From Blepharisma japonicum (Eukaryota; Ciliophora; Heterotrichea; Heterotrichida; Blepharismidae): a stretch of DNA of 64,000 bases. Within the stretch, counting starts at the first letter, position 1. Each line of letters opens with the position of its first letter. Of this stretch, positions 732 to 16,282 are shown one piece after another. Both the position numbers and the translations under genes were made by a program. The DNA lies in the NCBI GenBank assembly GCA_949751835.1, contig CATKHK010000023.1:248001-312000 (forward strand), given 5' to 3'. The notes below the pieces were generated by a model. The model was not told the DNA's origin and searched no databases. It saw only the letters and a program-made list of their open reading frames with translations.

Positions 732-1842
732 ATAAGTATAGAGTATATACAATTTTATCGTATATTAATAATCAAATTTAATGAAACTCAATTGTTTATT
801 AAATTGCAATTCAACTTCTATTTTTATTAATAAGCATGATAAATGTTAGATAATGAATAATTATGTAGATTCAGCATCGATAAGATTTACTAACAAATTT
901 CTCATTGAAATGTTTTTCTTTTTATGCAGAAGCCTCTCATTTAAATATGTTAGACCCCATTTATTATGTATGATTTAATTAATTTTAGCCATAATCCAAT
1001 TCGGTAAATTACGTTAAATTTTAATGATAAATATCTTTCCAGTGTTTTCAGGAACAAAAATGACGGGTTTTCTCCAGCAAATAAAGATAATTAGATACTC
1101 TTGTGCTATTTTTAAAGATTTTATTTCCTTTTTCTTAAATATTTACATATGTCTTGATCTAGACCTTGGCAAATTGCATCAAATAAAACCCGTCTGCAGA
1201 TATCTATGACAAAATAGCCATAAATCGACGAAATTAACAGTTCAATAAATTGATAATTTCAATAGTAAAAGTCTGATAAATTTGATGATGTATTTAGAAT
1301 AAATACTATCATTAATGAGAGAAAAGACATTTTTTTGATAAACGTATCTTGATTAGGCATTAATTTAAATAAATTTTTTTAAAATAAATATAATGAAATA
1401 AAAATTGTAGAAGCAGGAGATCATGATATAAATTGCACTCAATAAATAAAAACTTTAAAATAAATAATGAATAATCATAGGTTGCGAATTTTTCAAATCC
1501 TCCATTTAATAAAATATTTAATAAATTTTTTTCTCATTGACTTGAATAATTACAAAAATTAGCAATTACTAGCTTTAGTAAACAAACTGTAAATAAAAAT
1601 CAAAGCACCAACTTTCATTAATCTATAGAAATATTATGATTTTGCAAATAATACAAGCCTTTTAAACTCAGTGTTATCAAAAACTTTTTAAAATTAGGCA
1701 ATCTATTTTATTTCCCAAGCAATTAATTGTGATAATCAAAGCAAGAGATCACTTGAAGATGATTTTGTTTTCTAAAAACCAAATAACATATGAATTATAA
1801 TAATCGAATCTATCAGATGCAAGCTATTAAAACACTATTAAA
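732..1842. other. AT-rich intergenic stretch, no gene recognised
   Basis: About 1.1 kb of very AT-rich sequence between the Myb gene and a leftward gene. The only ORF of note (1024-1209, 61 codons) has biased AT composition and no recognisable similarity. I see no tRNA-like cloverleaf, no telomeric repeat and no array. The length is unusual for this window, where most gaps are under 200 nt. Confidence 0.6.
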
Positions 1843-2406
1843 CTAAACAATGCGATCTCTTAATTTCCAAGAATACACATAAAGCGCGCTTAAAAATTCT
1901 GAAATCTCCCCTTTAAACCCCACAACACCTCTTTTTTGTTTTGTAAAATCAACATTTTGAATTTGAGATCCAGGACCTTTTTTGCCCTGTGCCAAAAAAT
2001 TTTGACCTTGAGCAGTTTGAAATGAAATTGAATTTACATATTTATCATATGTGATTTCTATTTTTTGAATATAGTCTGATGTCCCTAATATAAGCCGGTC
2101 TTCTTTTCCGTGATGTCCTCTTATGTGTGATGTTCGTTTTACAGAGCCATCAATATTGTATTCAATTATAAAGCCTTTTATATAGTCTTCTGAATAAATC
2201 GTAAGATCATATATGTGGATAAGTTGGGACTGCTTTATCAATTCTTTATGATCAAAAAATTGAATATCTTCACGATTTATAATGCCAGTTGGTGGAAAAA
2301 CGTCAGGGATTTGGTTTTTAGATTCCATAAGTGGAAGAAGTGGTGGTGCAGGCTGGTTTATGTAGAGATCTCTAACCGTGCCTCTATATATGACTGAGCA
2401 TCCCAT
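1843..2406 (-). CDS. Jacalin-like lectin-domain protein with MGC N terminus
   Basis: 187 residues from the ATG at 2406. The C-terminal part has jacalin features: a repeat of beta-strand blocks (IKGFIIEYNIDGSVKRTSHI, then IQKIEITYDKYVNSISFQT) and a closing GFKGEISEFLSALYVYSW resembling the jacalin G-F-x-G-x-x-G-x-x-l-D-x-l-G-v-Y strand. Jacalin-type domains bind carbohydrate; the ligand here is unknown. I prefer the internal ATG at 2406 over 2454 because the upstream codons are AT-rich and because it yields MGCSVIYRG, a good N-myristoylation plus S-palmitoylation signal. That would place a lectin-fold domain on the cytosolic face of a membrane. It lies 84 nt downstream of the next leftward gene. 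The fold call is from motif pattern only. Confidence 0.62.
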   Translation of the reverse strand: MGCSVIYRGTVRDLYINQPAPPLLPLMESKNQIPDVFPPTGIINREDIQFFDHKELIKQSQLIHIYDLTIYSEDYIKGFIIEYNIDGSVKRTSHIRGHHGKEDRLILGTSDYIQKIEITYDKYVNSISFQTAQGQNFLAQGKKGPGSQIQNVDFTKQKRGVVGFKGEISEFLSALYVYSWKLRDRIV

Positions 2407-2490
2407 TTCCTTTTTATATTTTAATAATATAACATAATTGAGAAAAAGGCGCATTGTTTTATGTGATTTATTTAAATAGGGCTTATTAAA

Positions 2491-3540
2491 TTAGTGGTAT
2501 GAACTATCTAGTTCAAGTCTCTGCTTGATTATTTCTCTATACATCAATGCAATGTTTCGAGGAATAACTGCATCTCTTTGTAGCTTTATTTCCATTTTTT
2601 TTTCTTCGTTATTTTTTAGCTTTGAAGTTTTACCTTTTGCAGATCCGTCTTTTGAAACTTTGGGAGGATCAATATCTAGAGTATACTCAATAACTTCAGA
2701 AATGATCGGAAGATTGGATTGCGATCGGAACTGGGGAATATTTTTATGAGTTTTTGTGAAATCCTTATTTATTTGGTCCTCAAATACTTTGCGCTTTTCT
2801 TCTTGAGATTTCTCATATTTTTGTTTGGAATTGATTATAAACTCAACGTATTTATTAGGGCGTTTTTTTCTCTTAATAGTTGTATTGTCTGATTTTATTA
2901 TATCGGCTAAATTAATAGTTCTTGTCTTAATTTCCCTAATTGTATTATCGGAATTTGCCAATTCTTTCAGATCGCTTTTATTTTCAAGTTCCAGCACTCC
3001 TATATTTTCTTTAGATACTCTTATTTTAGCTCCAATTAGCGAACTCGTTTCATTTTTTTTGCTTTTTTCTCATTTCTCTTCTGGAATTATTTCAAAATTC
3101 CTATCATTTTTGCCTGGACTTCTAATACTCTTAATTGGCTCAGCACTCTCATCTACATAATCTTTATATATAAGAGATATAAGTTCTCCAGTGTTACCTT
3201 GCTCATGTGAGCATAATCTCGGGGAGTTTCTACCTACATTATATGACGGGTTTCTATATCCTGTTGACGAGTTTGCAATAATCCTAGATTGATCATTAAT
3301 CTCAGGGACATAGCGGTTTGTTGCTTGGACTTCCAAGACATACTTTTCTCTATCTTTAGCTTTTCTAAGCTCAAGCTCGATACCTTTTTTAATTAGCTTG
3401 TCCTCAATTTTCATTTTCGGAGGGGTTTCATAGATAGCTCTGCTAGATTTTGTGTTTTGCTGTGACAAAGGTGGAGAATCATATTGTTTTTTGAGTGAGA
3501 GATATATAGGCGACTTTGCAAATTTGTCTTGTAAGAGCAT
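2491..3540 (-). CDS. Hypothetical charged, low-complexity protein
   Basis: One 349-residue reading frame from ATG 3540 to the stop at 2491, with a single TGA (Trp 157) joining two apparent ORFs. The sequence is rich in Lys, Glu, Ser and Ile. There are likely short coiled-coil stretches (for example ELELRKAKDREKYVLEVQA) and basic clusters near KSDNTTIKRKKRPNK. No signal peptide, membrane segment or recognised domain is visible. It could be a structural or cytoskeletal protein, but nothing in the sequence settles that. It is transcribed divergently from the gene at 3724, with 183 nt between starts. Confidence 0.7.
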
Positions 3541-7065: not shown

Positions 7066-8262
7066 ATGCTGGGTTGGATATACCTATTATTAAGTTATGT
7101 GATTTCTCAAGAAATAGAGCATGCAGTTGTATATGGAAGCACAGAGGATCTTGCTTACTACTATGTCGATATTTGGGTCGGAACTCCAGCAGTCAAACAA
7201 ACTGTTATTGTTGACACAGGAAGTCGACTTACAGCATTCCCTTGTGCTGGCTGTGATAGTTGTGGCCAGCATATGGATACTTATTTTAATTACTCAAAAT
7301 CAACAACTGCACGTTTAGTCACATGTGAAGAGACTGCTTGTTCTTCTTGTCATGAACAAAAATGCGAATATTCACAAAGCTATGCTGAAGGAAGCTCAAT
7401 TTCAGGCTTCCTCGTTGAAGATTTAGTTATGTTTGGTGACGATTTTCAGCACTCCAAAGCTGTTCCTTTCAAATTTGGATGTCATAAAAGAGAAACCAAC
7501 CTTTTCAGAACTCAAAAAGCTGACGGGATCATGGGATTAGCATTTCCAAGAAGCAGAACCCCATCAATTATAGATGTTTTGTTCCAAGACCATGATATTT
7601 CTACTGATATTTTTGCCATATGTTTTGGCAAATTAGATGGATACATGACAATTGGGGGTTTCAATGCGTCTTTACATATCAGTCCTATAAAGTGGACCAC
7701 TTTGCATGATGAGACTTTTTATTCAGTTAATATAAATGATGCTTTATTAGATGGAGTTGCCTTACATTTGAATTCTAGGGAAAATTCAAGGACCTTTGTG
7801 TCAAATGCTATTGTTGACTCAGGAACGACTTATACTTATTTGACAAGCTCTATATATGATCCTTTATGGCAGGCTATAGAAAACTTTTGCCAAGTGGAAG
7901 GGAAATGTGATGGAGTCAGGAGACATATAAATGGGGAGGGCCATACATGTTATCATTATAACATTGATATACATCCAGATTTGTATCATTTTTTTGATAC
8001 TTTTCCAACTATAGCATTAACGATTGGGGATATCAATGTAGATTGGCTACCTGAGTATTATTTGTCATCATGGCAAGATTTCCCAGATATTTATTGTATA
8101 GGTATCTACAACACTGGAGGAGGAAGCGTGTTGGGGGGAAATTTTATGAGAGGGCAAGATGTTGTGTTTGATAGGGAAAATGATAAAATTGGCTTTGCAG
8201 AATCAGAGTGCAACCCGATTCATGTTCATGGAAATACCAGAAGACTTCATGGAAAATATTAA
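7066..8262 (+). CDS. Secreted/lysosomal pepsin-family aspartic protease (A1)
   Basis: 398 residues. The N terminus [16 protein letters not shown] is a signal peptide. The first catalytic motif is VIVDTGS with Asp50, and the second is [11 protein letters not shown] with Asp251; both sit in the expected hydrophobic-hydrophobic-D-T/S-G context of family A1. The flap region and C-rich insert ([30 protein letters not shown]) suggest disulphides, resembling plant nepenthesin-like and protist A1 enzymes. The [20 protein letters not shown] strand near the C terminus is also typical. There is little room for a classical propeptide between the signal peptide and the catalytic domain. No C-terminal membrane anchor is seen, so it is probably a food-vacuole, lysosomal or secreted protease. 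All Trp codons are TGG. Confidence 0.9.
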
Positions 8263-9306
8263 GGTCCAGGGTTAGTTCATAAAACTAAAACTTTTAATTA
8301 TTAGCTAATCTTCTTGGCTTGCCTTTTTATGGGCTTAATTTTGCAAACTGCCTAGATTTTTTATAGGTTGTCATATTTTAGTAAAATAAAAATTATGACA
8401 ATTTGGTAACACTCAGAGAAAAAGCTTATTAATTTATGATATCCTTGCATCTAAAATAGGTAATTATACATATTAACAGAGTTATTAGTTAAAATATTTG
8501 AAATAAATTTTCAACATTTTATTATTAAAATACAAATCTTAAAAAGTTCTAGAATTTATATATCAGAAACGAATAAAAGTAAAGCAATAATTTTTAAAAA
8601 TTCTCTAGTTTTTCTATATGATGTTTGTCAGTTTCAAAGAAGCTAATAAAATTGAAAATTTCTGATGGCATGATTTTAGAAAAATATAATTGGAATTTCT
8701 AATTTTTAAAGATCAATATCATTATCCTAATTTGTAGTTATAAGGTGTGCAGCAATTCACATGCATTTATAAACACAATCCCTAGTCTTAGGGCAAATAG
8801 TTTTTAGTGTCGAAAAATTTCTAGAGCCCATATTAATAGTTTTTGTATATCTCTGATCTTTTTCAAGCCAGCATTGAGCTCTTCCTTCTCAGTGATGTCA
8901 TTAAATTTCTTCATCTAATTTTCTATTAGAATTCTAAATCGCAATATAAAAATGTAGCTGGATAATGTCATCTATCAAGAATTAAAAAGCTCTATTATTA
9001 CTTGCTATGCCTTCCTATACTCTTCCACGCTCTCATTTCAACTTTTCTTTCCTGAATCTTGATTTTTGCAAAATTCTGTTATTTACTTTATATATTGACT
9101 AGGAGAACAAATTTTTCCCATATCCTTAATTTAATTTTTCACGATATTCTAAGCTTTATTCAAATTTCAGCTAAATTTTCTTAACCCCTTAACTTCCATG
9201 GATAAACTCAACCTCAATTAGTTTCTAAGTAACTAATTATAAATCCCTATTAAATGCTTTTATCGACATTTCAGTATTGATAAAAGAGTGGCTTATAATA
9301 AATAAT
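8263..9306. other. Long intergenic region with possible decayed coding sequence
   Basis: About 1 kb. The first half (8263-8720) is plain AT-rich sequence. The part from about 8740 to 9110 is more complex and, on the minus strand, gives short open fragments with Lys/Glu/Arg-rich helical composition broken by several TAA/TAG and frame changes, as expected of an old gene relic. A small perfect hairpin, CCCTA-GTCT-TAGGG, lies near 8781. No intact gene or RNA is supported. Confidence 0.35.
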
Positions 9307-10215
9307 ATGGAAAACAGCAGAACAGAGATCAGCGTCAGTGTAGGAGAAGTCCCAGCCCAACCAGGCGTCCAAGCTTACATCCACGTCGTTACTGGAGACA
9401 ATCTTGCAGCAAAAGCCAGAGAAACCATCCAAGCCGAGGTTGGAACAGCCCCTGCAGACTTCAACTTTTACACCGCTGTGAACTGTTCATCAGCCGAAGG
9501 TGCTGAAGAGCTGAAAAACCTTTTCAACAAAGTTTGGACTGGAATTACATCTGGATCTGCTACAGATGAAGCTTCTCAATTAATCAAAGGCCTTCTTGAT
9601 CCTGAAGGAGAAGGTCCAAAACTTAACCACGAATTCTCAGTTCACGGAACCAAACTCATCATCCGCGGATTTCCAAGTGAAGAGAAATTAGCTGAAGCCC
9701 AAGGAATCCAAGAAATGATTCACAGCATGGCTGGACACATCTTCGGACATGACCAAACTGTGCACCTTGAATTCGATATTGGCCACGAAATTGGAGCTAT
9801 CCTTGCAAGCCAAAACAAAATCATTGACGCTTTGAACTCATTGAGACTCAGCCTTGCTTTCCATGGAGCAGCATCTCTTTTCACCGATTTACAAAGTGTT
9901 GCTGAAGCAACTGGAGCAGGAAGAGGAGTCCTCCACATCTTAGGATTACTCAGCTTATACCAAAGCGCAATCCTTAACTTGAAGTTCAGAACCTCAGCTG
10001 AATTACCAGATGCAGTTAAAGAAAGAGCTCAAGTTATTGCCGCACAAGCCAACCTTGCTGATTTAAAGAACCAAGTCCCACCACCAGTATTATCATTCCT
10101 TGGAAAACTTGCCGATCATACCACTGGAGATGTACACGTCTTTATTGCAGCTGGCAGACTTGCTGGAGAATTTAAACTTCACTCACCTGGACTTTTACGT
10201 GCTCTTACAGCTTAA
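9307..10215 (+). CDS. Unknown Ala/Gly-rich protein with highly biased codons
   Basis: 302 residues from ATG 9307 (an upstream in-frame start at 9277 would add ten AT-rich codons and is unlikely). Composition is rich in Ala, Gly, Leu and His, with no signal peptide and no long membrane helix. The N-terminal half looks alpha/beta (QAYIHVVTGDNL, FNFYTAVNCSS, KLIIRGFPSEEKL); the C-terminal half is helical (NKIIDALNSLRLSLAFHGA, GRGVLHILGLLSLYQSAIL). I recognise no family. Its codon usage stands out: frequent C-ending codons (AAC, GCC, ATC, CTT/CTC, CAC) where neighbours use A/T-ending ones, which in ciliates usually marks very abundant proteins. No tryptophan is encoded by TGA. Confidence 0.88.
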   Translation: MENSRTEISVSVGEVPAQPGVQAYIHVVTGDNLAAKARETIQAEVGTAPADFNFYTAVNCSSAEGAEELKNLFNKVWTGITSGSATDEASQLIKGLLDPEGEGPKLNHEFSVHGTKLIIRGFPSEEKLAEAQGIQEMIHSMAGHIFGHDQTVHLEFDIGHEIGAILASQNKIIDALNSLRLSLAFHGAASLFTDLQSVAEATGAGRGVLHILGLLSLYQSAILNLKFRTSAELPDAVKERAQVIAAQANLADLKNQVPPPVLSFLGKLADHTTGDVHVFIAAGRLAGEFKLHSPGLLRALTA

Positions 10216-10521
10216 ATAACTAATCTTTAGTCCAAATAATCTCAGTTTTATCTAATTATTATTAATGCTAATAAAGGCGAATAAGATAGAGATAATAAAG
10301 AAGATAAAAGGAGTTTCATTTCTATTAGATATCAAAAATGTTATTAATTATATGGGATTTAAAAAATTTAGTAAAGGAATTAATATCAAACAGCTAGATT
10401 TATTTAGAAACTTTAAAAATAAATTCAGTAATTCAAATTCACCAATTCAAGCTTAATATGGACAAATCCATTCTCTTTTTCATATTTAAGCTTCAAAGTG
10501 CCGATTTCTTTTGATATAAAT
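10216..10521. other. Intergenic, AT-rich
   Basis: 306 nt between two rightward genes. A 63-codon ORF at 10265-10456 is Lys/Asn/Ile-rich and looks like chance. Holds the promoter of the VHS-adaptor gene. Confidence 0.5.
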
Positions 10522-13035
10522 ATGAACGCAACAAAACCTCTTGATTTAGTCCGCATGGGCTGTGTATCTAATGAAGACTATGAGCGATCAGCCCCTCAAC
10601 TCGCTGACATTATGAAAACAGCACAAATGCAGGTATGTCGCGATGTAATCGGTCTAATCAAAAAAATAATCAAAGACAAGCATGCAACTCCTCCTTCTAA
10701 ACTCCGTGCTTTAAAGCTTTTTCATGCTTGTATGATGGTTGCTAACACAAATTTCTTAATTTTCGCTCAACGCAAAGTAATGAGTAGATTTACCATTCTT
10801 GCAAAGCATAAAAAGCAGCTCCATGAAGATAACAGAGGAGATGATATGTTTGGCTCGGTAAGTGGAGTATCTGAAGAAAACCGTGAAGCTTCTAGAGAAT
10901 TTTTGACTTGTTTATTACAATACATCTACACTTGGGCTCAACAGTTTGGAAAAGCTCCTGATGGGAAGCCAAGTGCTTATTTAACAGCTTATAATGCTCT
11001 TCTAAAAGAAAATGTAACTTTTCCTAATAAGAGGAATTTAAAGCCAAGATTAAGTTTGGACAGCTCAAGACCAAGTTTAGATAACTCAAGGTCATCTTCA
11101 GCAGTCCCAAAACAATCATCTCCACAAATGTATGAAATGAACCCACAAAAGCCTCGTGCAGAAAGACAAGTAAATAGGCAGAATGGAGGGGGTATAAAAG
11201 GAAGGGTCGAAGCTACCATGAATATTTATAATGACCTGATAAGGTCTGGAGGAGGTGGCGATGCAATTGTAGAATGTTTTTTGCAGCTGAAAGAACTAAA
11301 AACTGAGCTTGAAAGAGAAGTGGGGCAATCTGATAACCCAGAAACAATTGAAAGTTTGTTTGAATTAAACGACCGATTACAAATGCTTATTGACTCTCAT
11401 CATGACATCGGAAACAAGCCACAACTCAGTAAATCTTATGATACAGTTCCTGTAATGCAGCCACAATCTGCATTAAAAAAACAGCAAATTGACAATATCT
11501 TAGACCTTGATTTATTTGATGACCCTCAGCAATCCTCAGTTTCTCAATCAGCAGCATTTTCAAGCATGTCTTTTGCAACCCAAAACCCTCGTATAAATAT
11601 GATGCCAATAGATATAAAATCCACAAACTCTCAAAATTACCCAGCCCTTTTACCTACTTCTGTGAAAGATGATGCTGGAGCTATAGAATCTCTTAGAAGG
11701 GAAAATGAAAAACTCAAAAAGGTCATAGGACACAGACAGGATGGGGACTCAAGTAAAATAAACCAAATAAATCAGCTTATGACAGAAAATATGCAGCTAA
11801 AACAGGCTTTAGAAGCTGTAAAACAGCAGATGTTTATGCAGGAAGAGAATATCAAAAAGCTAACACAAGGAAGTGCTCAATTAAATGCCTCACTTGTGGA
11901 GGCGAATCAAAATATAGACAGGCTTACAAGACAGTTGGAAGCTAAAGAAAATGAAATTAAGTCTTTGAAGATGAATGAAAAGCCAAATGGACACCAATCA
12001 AGCCTTTCGCAGCATTCTATTCCTATGAACCCTGAACTTAGAGTGCAAGCTCCTCAGCGTGCTCCAGATCCTTACACAATGGCTCCTGAGCTAAGAGTGC
12101 AAGCTCCTCAGCGTGCTCCAGATCCTTACTCTATGGCTCCTGAGCTAAGAGTGCAAGCCCCTCAGCGTGCTCCAGACCCTTACTCTATGGCTCCGGAACT
12201 TAAAGTTCAAATCCCTCCTCGCGTCCCAGACCCTTACAGTTCCTCCCCAAATCCTTTTGACAACAGTGATTCTTCTGATGATATTCCTGAGCAATCTCAT
12301 AATTTTCCGATCCAAAACGAACTCTATTATAGAATCTGCAACTGTATTGACAGAGGAATCTTATATGATGATGAATTTTTACAAGTTGGCATGCAGATTG
12401 CTAGGGATGAAACTAGCATTATGGGAATGATTTATGTCGGAAATAAAACCCCAGTTCCTATTACTGAGCTTAATACAGAAGTAATTAGCTATGAAAAAGA
12501 AGGACTAGTAGTGCTTATAAGCCCAATTATTTCTACTGATCCAATTACACAAGGGTTACAAGCTAACCGTATGGTTAAAGCTTCGTTAAAAGATTTTACA
12601 GGGAGGATTCCCAAAATTATCATAAAAATCAAGCAGGGATCAGAGACTAAGACTTTGTTTTTAAATTTGCCAATTACAATTGCGAGGTTTTTGCAAGGAA
12701 TTCAAAGGTCTCCTGAAGAGTTTTGGCCTATATGAGAAAGACTTGCATTTAAAGAGGAAAAGTTTTCATGCCAAATGCAAGGAATTAGATCAATGCAAGA
12801 GCTAGGCCAGCATTTATCACTTGGTGGGGCTTTTAAGATTTATACTCCACAAGAAATTTCTCAGCTCTCTCCAAATCAACTACTAGGAGCAGGCCAAAAA
12901 GGGGTTGCAGTACTTGTATTAGCTACAATAGACCCACAAACTATGTCAGCTCAAGTATCAATTCGCAGTGAAAGTTTAACGCTTCGTGAAGCTATAATGG
13001 AGATAATGTCAGCACAACTTTCAGGTAAAGAGTAA
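10522..13035 (+). CDS. VHS-GAT-hinge-alpha-adaptin-ear fusion, clathrin adaptor
   Basis: 837 residues from ATG 10522 (upstream in-frame GTG is not a credible eukaryotic start); one TGA (Trp) lies after EEFWPI. Residues 1-150 fit a helical VHS domain (KLRALKLFHACMMVANTNFL). Residues about 225-295 fit a GAT three-helix bundle (ESLFELNDRLQMLIDSHHDI). A coiled coil spans about 390-490. The hinge holds a clathrin-box-like ILDLD at 326-330, three and a half 18-residue repeats (504-575) and an NPF at 577-579. From about 600 to the end it matches the AP-2 alpha-adaptin appendage: GNKTPVPI sandwich strands, LNLPITIARFL, EEFWPIWERLAFKEE, and a platform ending LREAIMEIMSAQLSG. GGA proteins have VHS-GAT-hinge plus a gamma-type ear; here the ear is alpha-type with both subdomains. 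Likely a clathrin-coat cargo adaptor at endosome, TGN or plasma membrane. Confidence 0.82.
12031..12246 (+). repeat. 54-nt tandem repeat in the adaptor hinge
   Basis: Units at 12031, 12085, 12139 and a diverged fourth at 12193, each 54 nt. They encode PELRVQAPQRAPDPYxMA; the fourth is PELKVQIPPRVPDPYSSS. Units 1-3 are nearly identical at DNA level, so the expansion is recent. Confidence 0.92.
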
Positions 13036-13064
13036 TGATAATCATATTTTTAAGAAATAATAAG

Positions 13065-14631
13065 TTAAATCGTTATTTTCTTCCTTGCGAGCTCTGCAGT
13101 ATATTTTTCAGGGACCCCGTCTTTCTTTAGCGCTTCAAGTTTTTCATGCTTGATTCTTTCAAGCTTGCGCTTTTCGTCCTCAATTTCATTCCTAAGTTTT
13201 CTTCCTTCTTCTAAATACTCTCTCTGCTCCTGTGATTTCTTTTCATCATTAGTTAATATTTGAGCTTTAAGTTGCTCTGCGTGCTGCTTTCTAATCATAG
13301 CCTTCTGTTCTTCTATCATTCTTTCCTTGTCAGCAGCTTCTTTTTGGGCTTGAATAATTCTTTCAAATTCATCTCTTTCTTGTTTAGCTTGTATAAGCAT
13401 CCTTATTTCACGCTCTTGAGCTTGATTTATTCTTGCTTCCTCAATTTCTGCATTAATCTTTGCCAACTTTTGAGCTTCTTGGAATTCTTTTTCTCTTTCA
13501 ACCCTTTCTTGGGCTTCTTGAGCTCTTTTAGCTCTCAGTGCATCAAGCTCAGACTGTCTATCTTTAGCTCTTTCTTGTCTTTCTCTTAGCCTTTGGACTT
13601 CCCTTTCTTTTTCTGCTTTAATCCTCAACTGATCTTCTATTAATTCTTGTTCTCTTTTAGCTTTATCTAAGTTGTATTTCATAATCCTTTCATCTTCTTC
13701 TATTTCTTGTCTTTTTCTGGCTTCTTTGATAAGAATAGCTTTATTATTAGCTTGCTCCACCTCTGAAAGCAGTTTTTTCTGAGTCATCATCTTTTCTTGG
13801 GCAATTCTATTTTCTTCTTCTTGCAGTGATTCAATTTGTCTGAGCATTTGGGCTCGTTCTTTTTCAAGCATTTCTTGCTCTTTCATCCTAATAAAATCTC
13901 TTTCTTTTATTTGCTCTTCTAGCACTCTGGCACCTTGGATTCTGTCTTCTTTCCATTTTTGTTCTCTTTCATCATGATATTTGATGACCTTGAGTCTTTC
14001 GATTTCCATCATCAAGTCAAGCTGCTCTTCTGTTTTTTTCTTTTCTTCTTCAATAACTTTTTTCTCTTTTAACTGCTCATCTCGGACTGTTACGATTTTT
14101 GAGTATAGGACCATTTGGTTCATATGCTTTACATCATCATGCTCACGATCTAGAAGCTCGCCAGCCTTTTCACGAATTTTTTTCTTCTTTTCAGCGTCTT
14201 CACGCTCTGCTTCAGTCATTGGGGCATTTCTTTGACGCTCCTTTTCAAGCTCTTGCATACGCTCTTTACGAGCTTTAGCAGCTGCACGCTGTTGCTCTTT
14301 TTGTTCTTCAAGAACGGTTTGTTCTGCAAGGAGTTGGTCTTTTGTTTTTAAAACAGCTGCAGCTTTCATTCGCTGGATTTCGCTAAGAGGAATTACTGTA
14401 GCATTTTCAGGGATAGTTCCTGTTTTTACTTGAGTTTTTATTTTATTTACTTCGGCATCTGAGATTTTAACTGATTTTCCAGCTTGAGAGCCTGGCTTTG
14501 AAGATGGCTGTTTTTTGGATCCAAAAAGAGACTCATCAACTTGAGAGCCACCTGAAACTTTTTTATAATTAGAACCTGATTTTTTTGATTGGACACTTCC
14601 TTGGGAGCTTGGCTAAGTTAAAAATTACCAT
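13065..14631 (-). CDS. CFAP45: CFAP45 (CCDC19) microtubule inner protein
   Basis: 516 residues: ATG at 14631-14629, a 16-nt intron, then one exon 14612-13065. The protein is almost entirely a charged helix of the trichohyalin-plectin-homology type. It carries CFAP45-like blocks such as QRAAAKARKERMQELEKERQ, NQMVLYSKIVTVRDEQL and EQLDLMMEIERLKVIKY, and ends near the family's usual length of about 550. CFAP45 is known as a microtubule inner protein in the A-tubule of axonemal doublets. The N terminus (MPSSQGSVQSKKSGSN) is disordered. Its stop lies 29 nt from the stop of the convergent adaptor gene. Generic coiled-coil similarity is a risk, but the motif order favours CFAP45. Confidence 0.85.
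14613..14628 (-). other. 16-nt intron directly after the start codon
   Basis: On the minus strand it reads GTAATTTTTAACTTAG and splits the ATG from the second codon. Without removal an in-frame TAG precedes the conserved protein. A at position 10 as in the other introns. Confidence 0.75.
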
Positions 14632-14950
14632 TTAAAGAAAATATTGATTATAAATTATGAATTAATCAAATTTTCATATGAGAAGAAATAGAAACTTATA
14701 ACAAATAACATGAACTTATGGAGAACACTTTTAACATACTTGCATTGGGTTTTTGAAATTAAATAATTTTTCAATTGAAGCTTAAAATTAGGAAGTGTTT
14801 AATAATATATTCATCTCAATTTTCAAACAATCCGAATTAGTTTAAAATTTAAGTAATTATAATACATGATCAAATTTTTTTCCATTTAAGCATCTGATGA
14901 AAAACGCTGTAGCACATTTAAACTATTCTAATAAATTTATTTAGTTTATA
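14632..14950. other. Divergent intergenic region, CFAP45 / septin
   Basis: 319 nt of AT-rich DNA between two start codons; it must contain both promoters. No distinctive motif recognised. Confidence 0.5.
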
Positions 14951-16282
14951 ATGGAAGACTATTCAGATTCTTTTGATGCTCCTTTTAAAATCAGCAATTT
15001 TGACCAGCCTGACATTCATCCTTTTATTGGCTTACAAGAATCTTTGGATTCACCTAATTCCGAGAAATTTGCCCTTACTTCCGAAGTCCTTCGACAGCAC
15101 CAGATCTCGCAGCCAAAAATTTCATTTCTTCACAAATTTTTGCACGACCAACGTCACGCAGCTGGCTATAATTCTCCTGAAGCCGAGCATCAATCCCATG
15201 ATAGGAACTGTTTTCCAAAGCCAGGTATAGATGCCAAGACTATAAAATCTGATTATATTGATTCTCCTCAAGGGATTATGTCCCCAGAAAAAGAATTGCA
15301 GGCATCAATTAACTGTTCTGATTTAAAATGTCTTGCGGAGATTAGAAAGAAAAAATTATTAGAGCCAGTACTTTCTATTTAGATTCAATTTAATGTTATA
15401 GTTATTGGGGATTCCGGGGTCGGAAAAACCTCATTTATAAATACTTTTTTATCTATGAAATTTAATAGATTTGTTCCTGAAGACTTAGATAATAAAATGA
15501 GTAGGCCAACAATTAAAATAGAGCAAAATTCAGCTACAAAGGTGGTTGGTGATTTAACTTATAAAGTTAATATGATTGATACACCTGGTTATGGTAAAGC
15601 TAAGAATTTTTCTATATGACTAAAAAGTATCAAAAATTTTATAATACACTCTGCAACTCAATATAAACACGCTAAAAAATCTATAATGAAGCCAGAAGAC
15701 ACCAGGGTCCATCTATGTTTATACTTTATTGAAGGCCCAAGATGCAAAGAGCGTGATCTTCGTGCGATGTGCCAACTTCAAAAATATGTACAAATTATCC
15801 CAATTCTCGCAAAAGCAGATTCTTATCAATCTAAAGAAGAAATAGAGAATGTCAAGAGAAACCTCAATTTCGAAATTTTTAATAGCGAAATACAACTTTT
15901 TGATTTTATGAGCGCATTAGGCAATGATAAACATTTAATCACACGTGCACCTCTACAGCCCCTCCCACCATTTGCTATTATTTCTGCCACACAGCTGATT
16001 GAGACGAAATCAAAAATTAAATATGGAAGATCTTATCAATGAGGATTTTGTGATATTTCTGACAAAGAAACTTCTGATTTTTCAATTTTAAGCAAACTCC
16101 TTATGGGATATTTTGTCGATTTTGCAATTGATACAGCAAAAATAATAAATAAGAAGAATCTAAAAGAAATTAAAAACAAATTCGATGATAACAAAAAAAG
16201 CACAGGTATAAAGTCAATGAAAAGTAAATTGCTGGAAGGTATGGTATGAGGATTGTTTGGGTTAATTTTGAAAAGGAATTAA
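14951..16282 (+). CDS. Septin GTPase with N-terminal extension and hydrophobic tail
   Basis: 438 residues from exons 14951-15367 and 15383-16282, joined across a 15-nt intron; TGA encodes Trp at three sites. Residues 1-139 are an unrecognised disordered extension. The GTPase domain starts at IQFNVIVIGDSGVGKTS (P-loop G148-S156), followed by VNMIDTPGYG (G3), ILAKADS (G4) and a septin-type GRSYQWGFCDI with DFSILSKLLM. Septins bind GTP, assemble into filaments and associate with membranes; in Tetrahymena several are known to act at mitochondria. The C terminus MVWGLFGLILKRN is hydrophobic then basic and could be a membrane-inserting tail. A coiled-coil C terminus, common in animal septins, is lacking. 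Confidence 0.88.
15368..15382 (+). other. 15-nt intron
   Basis: GTACTTTCTATTTAG. Its final TAG would otherwise stop the frame; removal joins KKKLLEP directly to IQFNVIVIGDSG of the GTPase domain. Confidence 0.93.

Follow-up and report, generated by a model that had tools for sequence, protein, structure and literature searches.

What kind of adaptor begins like a VHS protein and ends in what resembles the appendage of AP-2 alpha? The question is raised by an open reading frame at positions 10522-13035 (+) of the window, by which we mean the whole 64,000-nucleotide stretch of Blepharisma japonicum DNA that was analysed. The frame comprises 837 codons plus a stop, and stays open if TGA stands for Trp, a codon usage that fits a heterotrich. 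Window positions 8001-16000 were base-shuffled 300 times (three frames, one strand); the longest chance open run was 246 codons, and the frame is thus far beyond chance length. The features of the gene are listed below, where C21, C25 and C26 denote other loci of the same genome.

10522..13035, + strand: whole gene, 837 aa, VHS-GAT-hinge-alpha-ear, putative KAE/KIC4-type adaptor (open frame and paralogues)
10522..11025, + strand: VHS domain, aa 1-168 (VHS profile against PDB; hhalign to the VHS protein C25)
11197..11430, + strand: probable GAT three-helix bundle, aa 226-303 (Pfam GAT in paralogues)
11497..11511, + strand: clathrin-box-like ILDLD, aa 326-330 (kept in the hinges of this protein, C21 and C26)
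11686..11973, + strand: coiled-coil-like hinge stretch, about aa 389-484 (weak matches to several coiled-coil families)
12031..12237, + strand: tandem repeat with a period of 54 nt and 3.8 copies, coding for PELRVQAPQRAPDPYSMA units
12250..12258, + strand: NPF, aa 577-579, with a Ser/Asp-rich run between it and the ear
12340..12669, + strand: ear, sandwich subdomain, about aa 607-716, subdomain boundary approximate (PDB searches; Alpha_adaptinC2)
12670..13017, + strand: ear, platform subdomain, about aa 717-832, with Trp at the alpha-adaptin W840 position (PDB searches; hhalign)
12733..12735, + strand: Trp codon TGA at aa 738, within the ear; the sole in-frame TGA

GGA proteins consist of VHS, GAT, a hinge with a clathrin-box-like motif and a single gamma-type ear domain, while TOM1 and Tom1-like proteins have VHS and GAT without an ear. 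The predicted protein shares VHS, a probable GAT, a clathrin-box-like hinge and an ear with the GGAs, but its ear is of the two-subdomain alpha type, and it shares VHS and the probable GAT with the TOM1 group, from which the ear sets it apart. Its ear is like the AP-2 alpha appendage over the full length, but here no adaptin trunk is attached.

The ear and the VHS-GAT front

Searched as a single sequence with phmmer, residues 607-832 matched AP-2 alpha appendage chains of the PDB (E 7.6e-9), and Alpha_adaptinC2 matched the isolated ear at 2.5e-5, registering in all six ears of the paralogue family described below. A profile built from all six ears found (A2) gave nine PDB matches up to E 10, the top seven being AP-2 alpha (4.8e-20 to 2.1e-18) and the remaining two a flagellin-type protein (5.6e-4) and GGA1 (0.016); a beta chain did not appear in this list. 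The two-subdomain alpha-adaptin-like ear described in an earlier, sequence-only reading of this DNA is borne out by both the single-sequence and the profile searches. That reading had also proposed comparison with gamma, alpha and beta ears. In hhalign, the ear matched the mammalian alpha ear at 98% (E 2e-13), but the beta ears of its own genome at 1% and the AP-1 gamma at 1.4%. Given these matches and alignments, the ear is of the alpha type, and both subdomains are present, as expected for an adaptor of the KAE/KIC4 kind described from apicomplexan parasites. An identity as AP-2 alpha itself is ruled out by the missing adaptin trunk (Adaptin_N is absent among the 13 Pfam families listed for the protein), and a GGA identity by ear was rejected from the ear profile and hhalign, which do not point to a single-domain gamma-type ear.

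The platform gave a weak match to the Pfam family B2-adapt-app_C (0.0034 on this ear; two of the six ears, best 3.8e-5; 1.6e-4 for full-length C21). Beta and alpha platforms have a common fold, and the weak match is therefore best read as fold resemblance. It could also be taken to favour a hybrid of a GGA and a beta-adaptin, which is how KIC4 of P. falciparum, with VHS, GAT, appendage and a beta-type C-terminal subdomain, was initially interpreted on the basis of a structure prediction and described by Schmidt et al. 2023 (PMC10718435), who in the excerpts used here call this organisation found in no other protein. For the Blepharisma protein we consider such a hybrid highly improbable, as the nine matches of the full-length ear are led by alpha, at 4.8e-20, and include no beta chain, and hhalign separates the mammalian alpha ear from the genome's own beta ears; a beta-type ear was rejected on the same comparisons.

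The VHS domain escapes detection when the protein is searched as a single sequence, and needs a family profile. With a VHS profile of seven own-genome members, the top five of six PDB matches were TOM1, TOM1, STAM2, TOM1L1 and HRS, all VHS proteins, at E-values from 6.4e-6 (TOM1) to 0.02 (HRS), and hhalign matched the VHS region to C25, one of the genome's own VHS proteins, at 95% (E 2.3e-8). Pfam VHS registered in three of seven members as cut-out domains (E up to 10, best 1e-5), and in none of nine full-length proteins at 0.05. In general, Pfam searches of full-length members miss domains that register when cut out; perhaps coiled-coil composition disturbs the whole-protein scan.

A GAT domain after the VHS is probable, and less firm than the VHS domain and the ear. 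Pfam GAT registered in five of seven members (E up to 10, best 1.7e-6; this member alone 0.019), and in the full-length C19b member at 1.5e-6, with 28.8 bits, just below the curated cut-off of 31; none of the GAT matches given with a cut-off attained it. A GAT-only profile placed GGA3 first in the PDB (6.6e-4), nearly level with a designed helical repeat (8.1e-4), whereas a combined VHS-GAT profile matched TOM1 (1.3e-5) and the GGA1 GAT (5.2e-5), with designed helical proteins from 0.0045. Profiles A1 and A3 took in seven of nine family members, all but the C56 fragment and C49, whose front does not stay in a single frame. Of the VHS-GAT front that the sequence-only reading had named, the VHS part thus stands and the GAT part is the weaker. 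Single-sequence AlphaFold2 models had mean pLDDT values of 38.6 (ear) and 45.6 (VHS region), neither usable, and were not carried into a fold search, since a poor model yields meaningless matches.

A paralogue family and an AP-2 alpha without an ear

The genome (45.19 Mb, 224 contigs) was searched with the protein and with Alpha_adaptinC2, and the loci found were then read. Six have a VHS-like front and an ear: C23 (10522-13035), C21, C26, C19a, C19b and C49. In C21, C26, C19a and C19b the entire order from VHS to ear stands in a single uninterrupted frame; C49, the most divergent locus, has both halves, with the front divided between frames. For three further loci, C48, C9 and C56, we found the front and coiled-coil part and no ear, and in the C56 fragment the next gene follows directly. 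On C56, an ear-less VHS-GAT-like gene with a coiled-coil tail (L050:3155-4528 (-)) adjoins the AP-4 epsilon gene. There are also separate VHS genes with no ear detected (C72, C25, C81). A genome search with one ear recovered five of the six ears and missed C49, so an equally divergent ear elsewhere could escape. A search with PF02296 gave no match in the genome, the family's own ears included, nor in control genomes, and is thus no proof of absence. A scan of viral contigs based on the ear alignment turned up 71 pattern matches but no relative.

Since this locus and four paralogues each read from VHS through ear in one frame, we take the protein to be encoded by one gene, and the observation of a predicted VHS-through-ear protein with an alpha-type ear to be confirmed at the sequence level. 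The frame is known here from DNA alone, which could be held to favour neighbouring genes mistaken for a single one, or a chimera of the assembly. We find this barely credible and rejected it, given the uninterrupted 837-codon frame and the same order in one frame in four paralogues. The two ends also covary: VHS identity correlates with ear identity across five of the six ear-bearing members (all except C49; 10 pairs, r 0.93), with 4 of 120 permutations as high. Between this gene and C21, VHS and ear are each 81-82% identical, with dN of 0.11 for both and dS saturated for the VHS and 1.1 for the ear, and the linker, GAT and hinge diverge faster. Judged against C21, both ends are under purifying selection; the dN/dS comparison took in three of the five ear-bearing paralogues (all except C19a and C49).

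The convergent neighbour of the gene is a TPH (trichohyalin-plectin-homology) gene (window 13065-14369 (-)), a second copy of which lies at L009 2-916. As this neighbour was copied together with the adaptor on C21, a block duplication of the region seems to have taken place. Further coat genes, judged by eye, are paired too (C66/C127, C10/C3, C14/C16, C25/C81).

As read from the DNA, the only AP-2 alpha found (C42) ends after the trunk without an ear. Its match to AP-2 alpha (E 1.3e-136) spans residues 6-662 of the 939, after which the frame stops; 41 bases on, a small ATG-led open reading frame starts, followed by another gene, which leaves no room for an ear. We take the small frame to encode a ribosomal protein-like product. 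No second AP-2 alpha was found in the genome. Other adaptins served as controls: the beta-adaptin of C66 retains its beta ear (E 2e-26), and AP-1 gamma on C20 retains an ear match (60.5 bits). What is new here is a genome whose only AP-2 alpha found lacks an ear, while a beta-adaptin and AP-1 gamma still have one. AP-2 alpha is not the sole such case, since AP-4 epsilon (C56) likewise has no detected ear. Adaptin_N gave 19 matches, of which the 14 strongest were fetched and five named by PDB search (C42, C67, C20, C66, C56); the names of the remaining adaptin loci are provisional.

Two further observations concern the trunks. The AP-2 alpha and AP-4 epsilon genes have similar tails, DLLEI (L034 (C42) 2650-2664) and DLLEL (3' end of L032 (C56) 1135-3483 (-)). 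A divergent AP-1 gamma-like trunk on C67 (L037:690-2363 (+), 558 codons) is an open frame that ends without an ear.

Relation to KIC4 and KAE

The sequence-only reading knew of no named family with this order of domains. That claim does not hold, as KIC4 is already a VHS-GAT-ear protein (excerpts of PMC10718435) and KAE an alpha-ear-bearing one (excerpts of Koreny et al. 2023, PMC10105704). On these published descriptions, the Blepharisma protein is probably a new member of a known, little-studied kind of adaptor already described in malaria and Toxoplasma parasites. Like KIC4, it has VHS, a probable GAT, a hinge and a two-part C-terminal adaptin ear, and the hinge of KIC4, reported to be without detectable fold, can be likened to the hinge here. 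Unlike KIC4 as described, the ear is of the alpha type rather than part of a beta hybrid, and the order is present at six loci of one ciliate genome. TgKAE, the homologue of KIC4, is essential according to the excerpts of PMC10718435. In those of PMC10105704, Toxoplasma KAE (TGME49_272600) bears an alpha ear and no other conserved domains by sequence search. The features in common with it are a C-terminal alpha ear without adaptin trunk, coiled-coil motifs and an altered ear of AP-2 alpha: the Toxoplasma AP-2 alpha ear is described as degenerate, and none was found on AP-2 alpha here. Unlike KAE as described, the Blepharisma protein carries VHS and a probable GAT.

Koreny et al. state the split into AP-2 alpha and KAE for all alveolates, and report K13 as apparently absent in ciliates (excerpts of PMC10105704). 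From the two papers, apicomplexans are thus known to have the architecture, and the claim of a split extends to ciliates. Among the open-licence titles and starts of abstracts listed in a ciliate-directed literature search, none dealt with a ciliate VHS-GAT-alpha-ear protein, and the excerpts of PMC9947163 and PMC12742282 added nothing on one.

We think it likely that the protein is a ciliate adaptor of the KAE/KIC4 kind, which would bring the alpha-ear to endocytic coats as a separate VHS-GAT molecule. As AP-2 alpha ends after its trunk without an ear, delivery of the alpha-ear by separate VHS-GAT proteins appears the most probable arrangement. In this model, cargo, ubiquitin or membrane would be bound through the VHS-GAT end, and clathrin and EH-domain proteins would be contacted through the hinge. 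The VHS-GAT proteins would carry the alpha-ear to forming coats, where it would take over from AP-2 alpha the recruitment of accessory proteins.

The protein could instead be a sorting adaptor of the GGA or Tom1 type (ESCRT-0-like) that acts at the TGN or endosome and merely uses an alpha-like ear. Its VHS is closest to TOM1, STAM and HRS and its probable GAT to GGA, and disruption of KIC4 in Plasmodium had no detectable effect on endocytosis in the assay used (excerpts of PMC10718435). We nevertheless regard this as unlikely: GGA1 reached only 0.016 in the profile search with this alpha-type ear, AP-2 alpha was found without an ear, and the genome has separate VHS genes without a detected ear. 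The Toxoplasma homologue, moreover, is located at the plasma-membrane micropore with AP-2 (excerpts of PMC10105704).

We infer common descent with KAE and KIC4 from architecture and published descriptions, which gives some room to convergence, with VHS-GAT joined to an alpha ear independently in ciliates and myzozoans. The report of KAE without other conserved domains by sequence search (PMC10105704, in excerpts) would fit such separate fusions. Convergence seems rather improbable to us, however, as KIC4 shows the identical unusual order (excerpts of PMC10718435) and the split of AP-2 alpha and KAE has been placed in all alveolates.

If the protein is of the KAE/KIC4 kind, it joins two 2023 reports whose excerpts describe the same protein differently, one as KAE, with an alpha ear and no other domain, the other as KIC4, with VHS-GAT and an ear taken to be beta-like. 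The presence of VHS, a probable GAT and a clear alpha ear in one ciliate protein suggests an origin of the full order before parasitism, in the alveolate ancestor. Free-living, non-pathogenic cells thereby become a place to test the role of a detached alpha-ear, and a further system of interest is a genome in which the one AP-2 alpha found is entirely without an ear.

Hinge motifs and ear ligands

The two hinge motifs named in the sequence-only reading are both present, ILDLD at aa 326-330 and NPF at aa 577-579. Motifs were counted in five of the six ear-bearing members (all except C49). ILDLD, which we take to be one letter from the clathrin box LLDLD, occurs in three of the five hinges and in 0 of 500 shuffles for each of those three, and it may bind clathrin. 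NPF is present somewhere in four of the five, with 16 to 51 of 500 shuffles containing NPF in those four, and is only mildly rarer than chance; the site here is at the same place in C21 and C19a. The units of the 54-nt repeat carry DPY, with none in the paralogues aligned. The C19a paralogue (L011:986-5302 (+), 1439 aa in total) has a hinge of about 900 aa between GAT and ear that is largely coiled-coil-like.

Several ear positions with a role in binding could be compared in mammalian alpha numbering. An aromatic residue at 740, G742, Q782 and an aromatic at 837 are each retained by five of six members, W840 and R920 by all six. Certain other residues of the mammalian alpha-ear platform are mostly lost: E849 is found in two of six members, R916 in one and R905 in none.

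In Toxoplasma, the KAE ear binds Eps15L through WxxF and TgAP-2 alpha does not (excerpts of PMC10105704). The EH family gave 26 matches in the Blepharisma genome, of which the three strongest loci, with five matches between them, were taken as open frames with no introns modelled. In contrast to Eps15L, these three EH-domain (Eps15-like) proteins contain no WxxF, nor any DP[FW] or FxDxF, so that a link to Eps15 of the Toxoplasma type is unsupported by motif here. They do contain 19, 5 and 0 copies of F[DN]F, a pattern chosen after reading the sequences; shuffle means were 1.1 for the 19-copy and 0.43 for the 5-copy protein, and 0 of 500 shuffles reached either count. We offer as a tentative idea, and a doubtful one, that the alpha-ear of AP-2 has been fully handed to at least six VHS-GAT adaptors and that the ligand code has changed from WxxF, DPF and FxDxF to F[DN]F in the Eps15-like proteins; for the changed code, the basis is a correlation of motifs. 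If true, the accessory-protein hub of endocytosis would be an interchangeable set of parts. In the 19-copy protein, an EH-domain open frame of 1075 codons (L045:312-3536 (-)), many of the F[DN]F copies occur as EFDFNK repeats.
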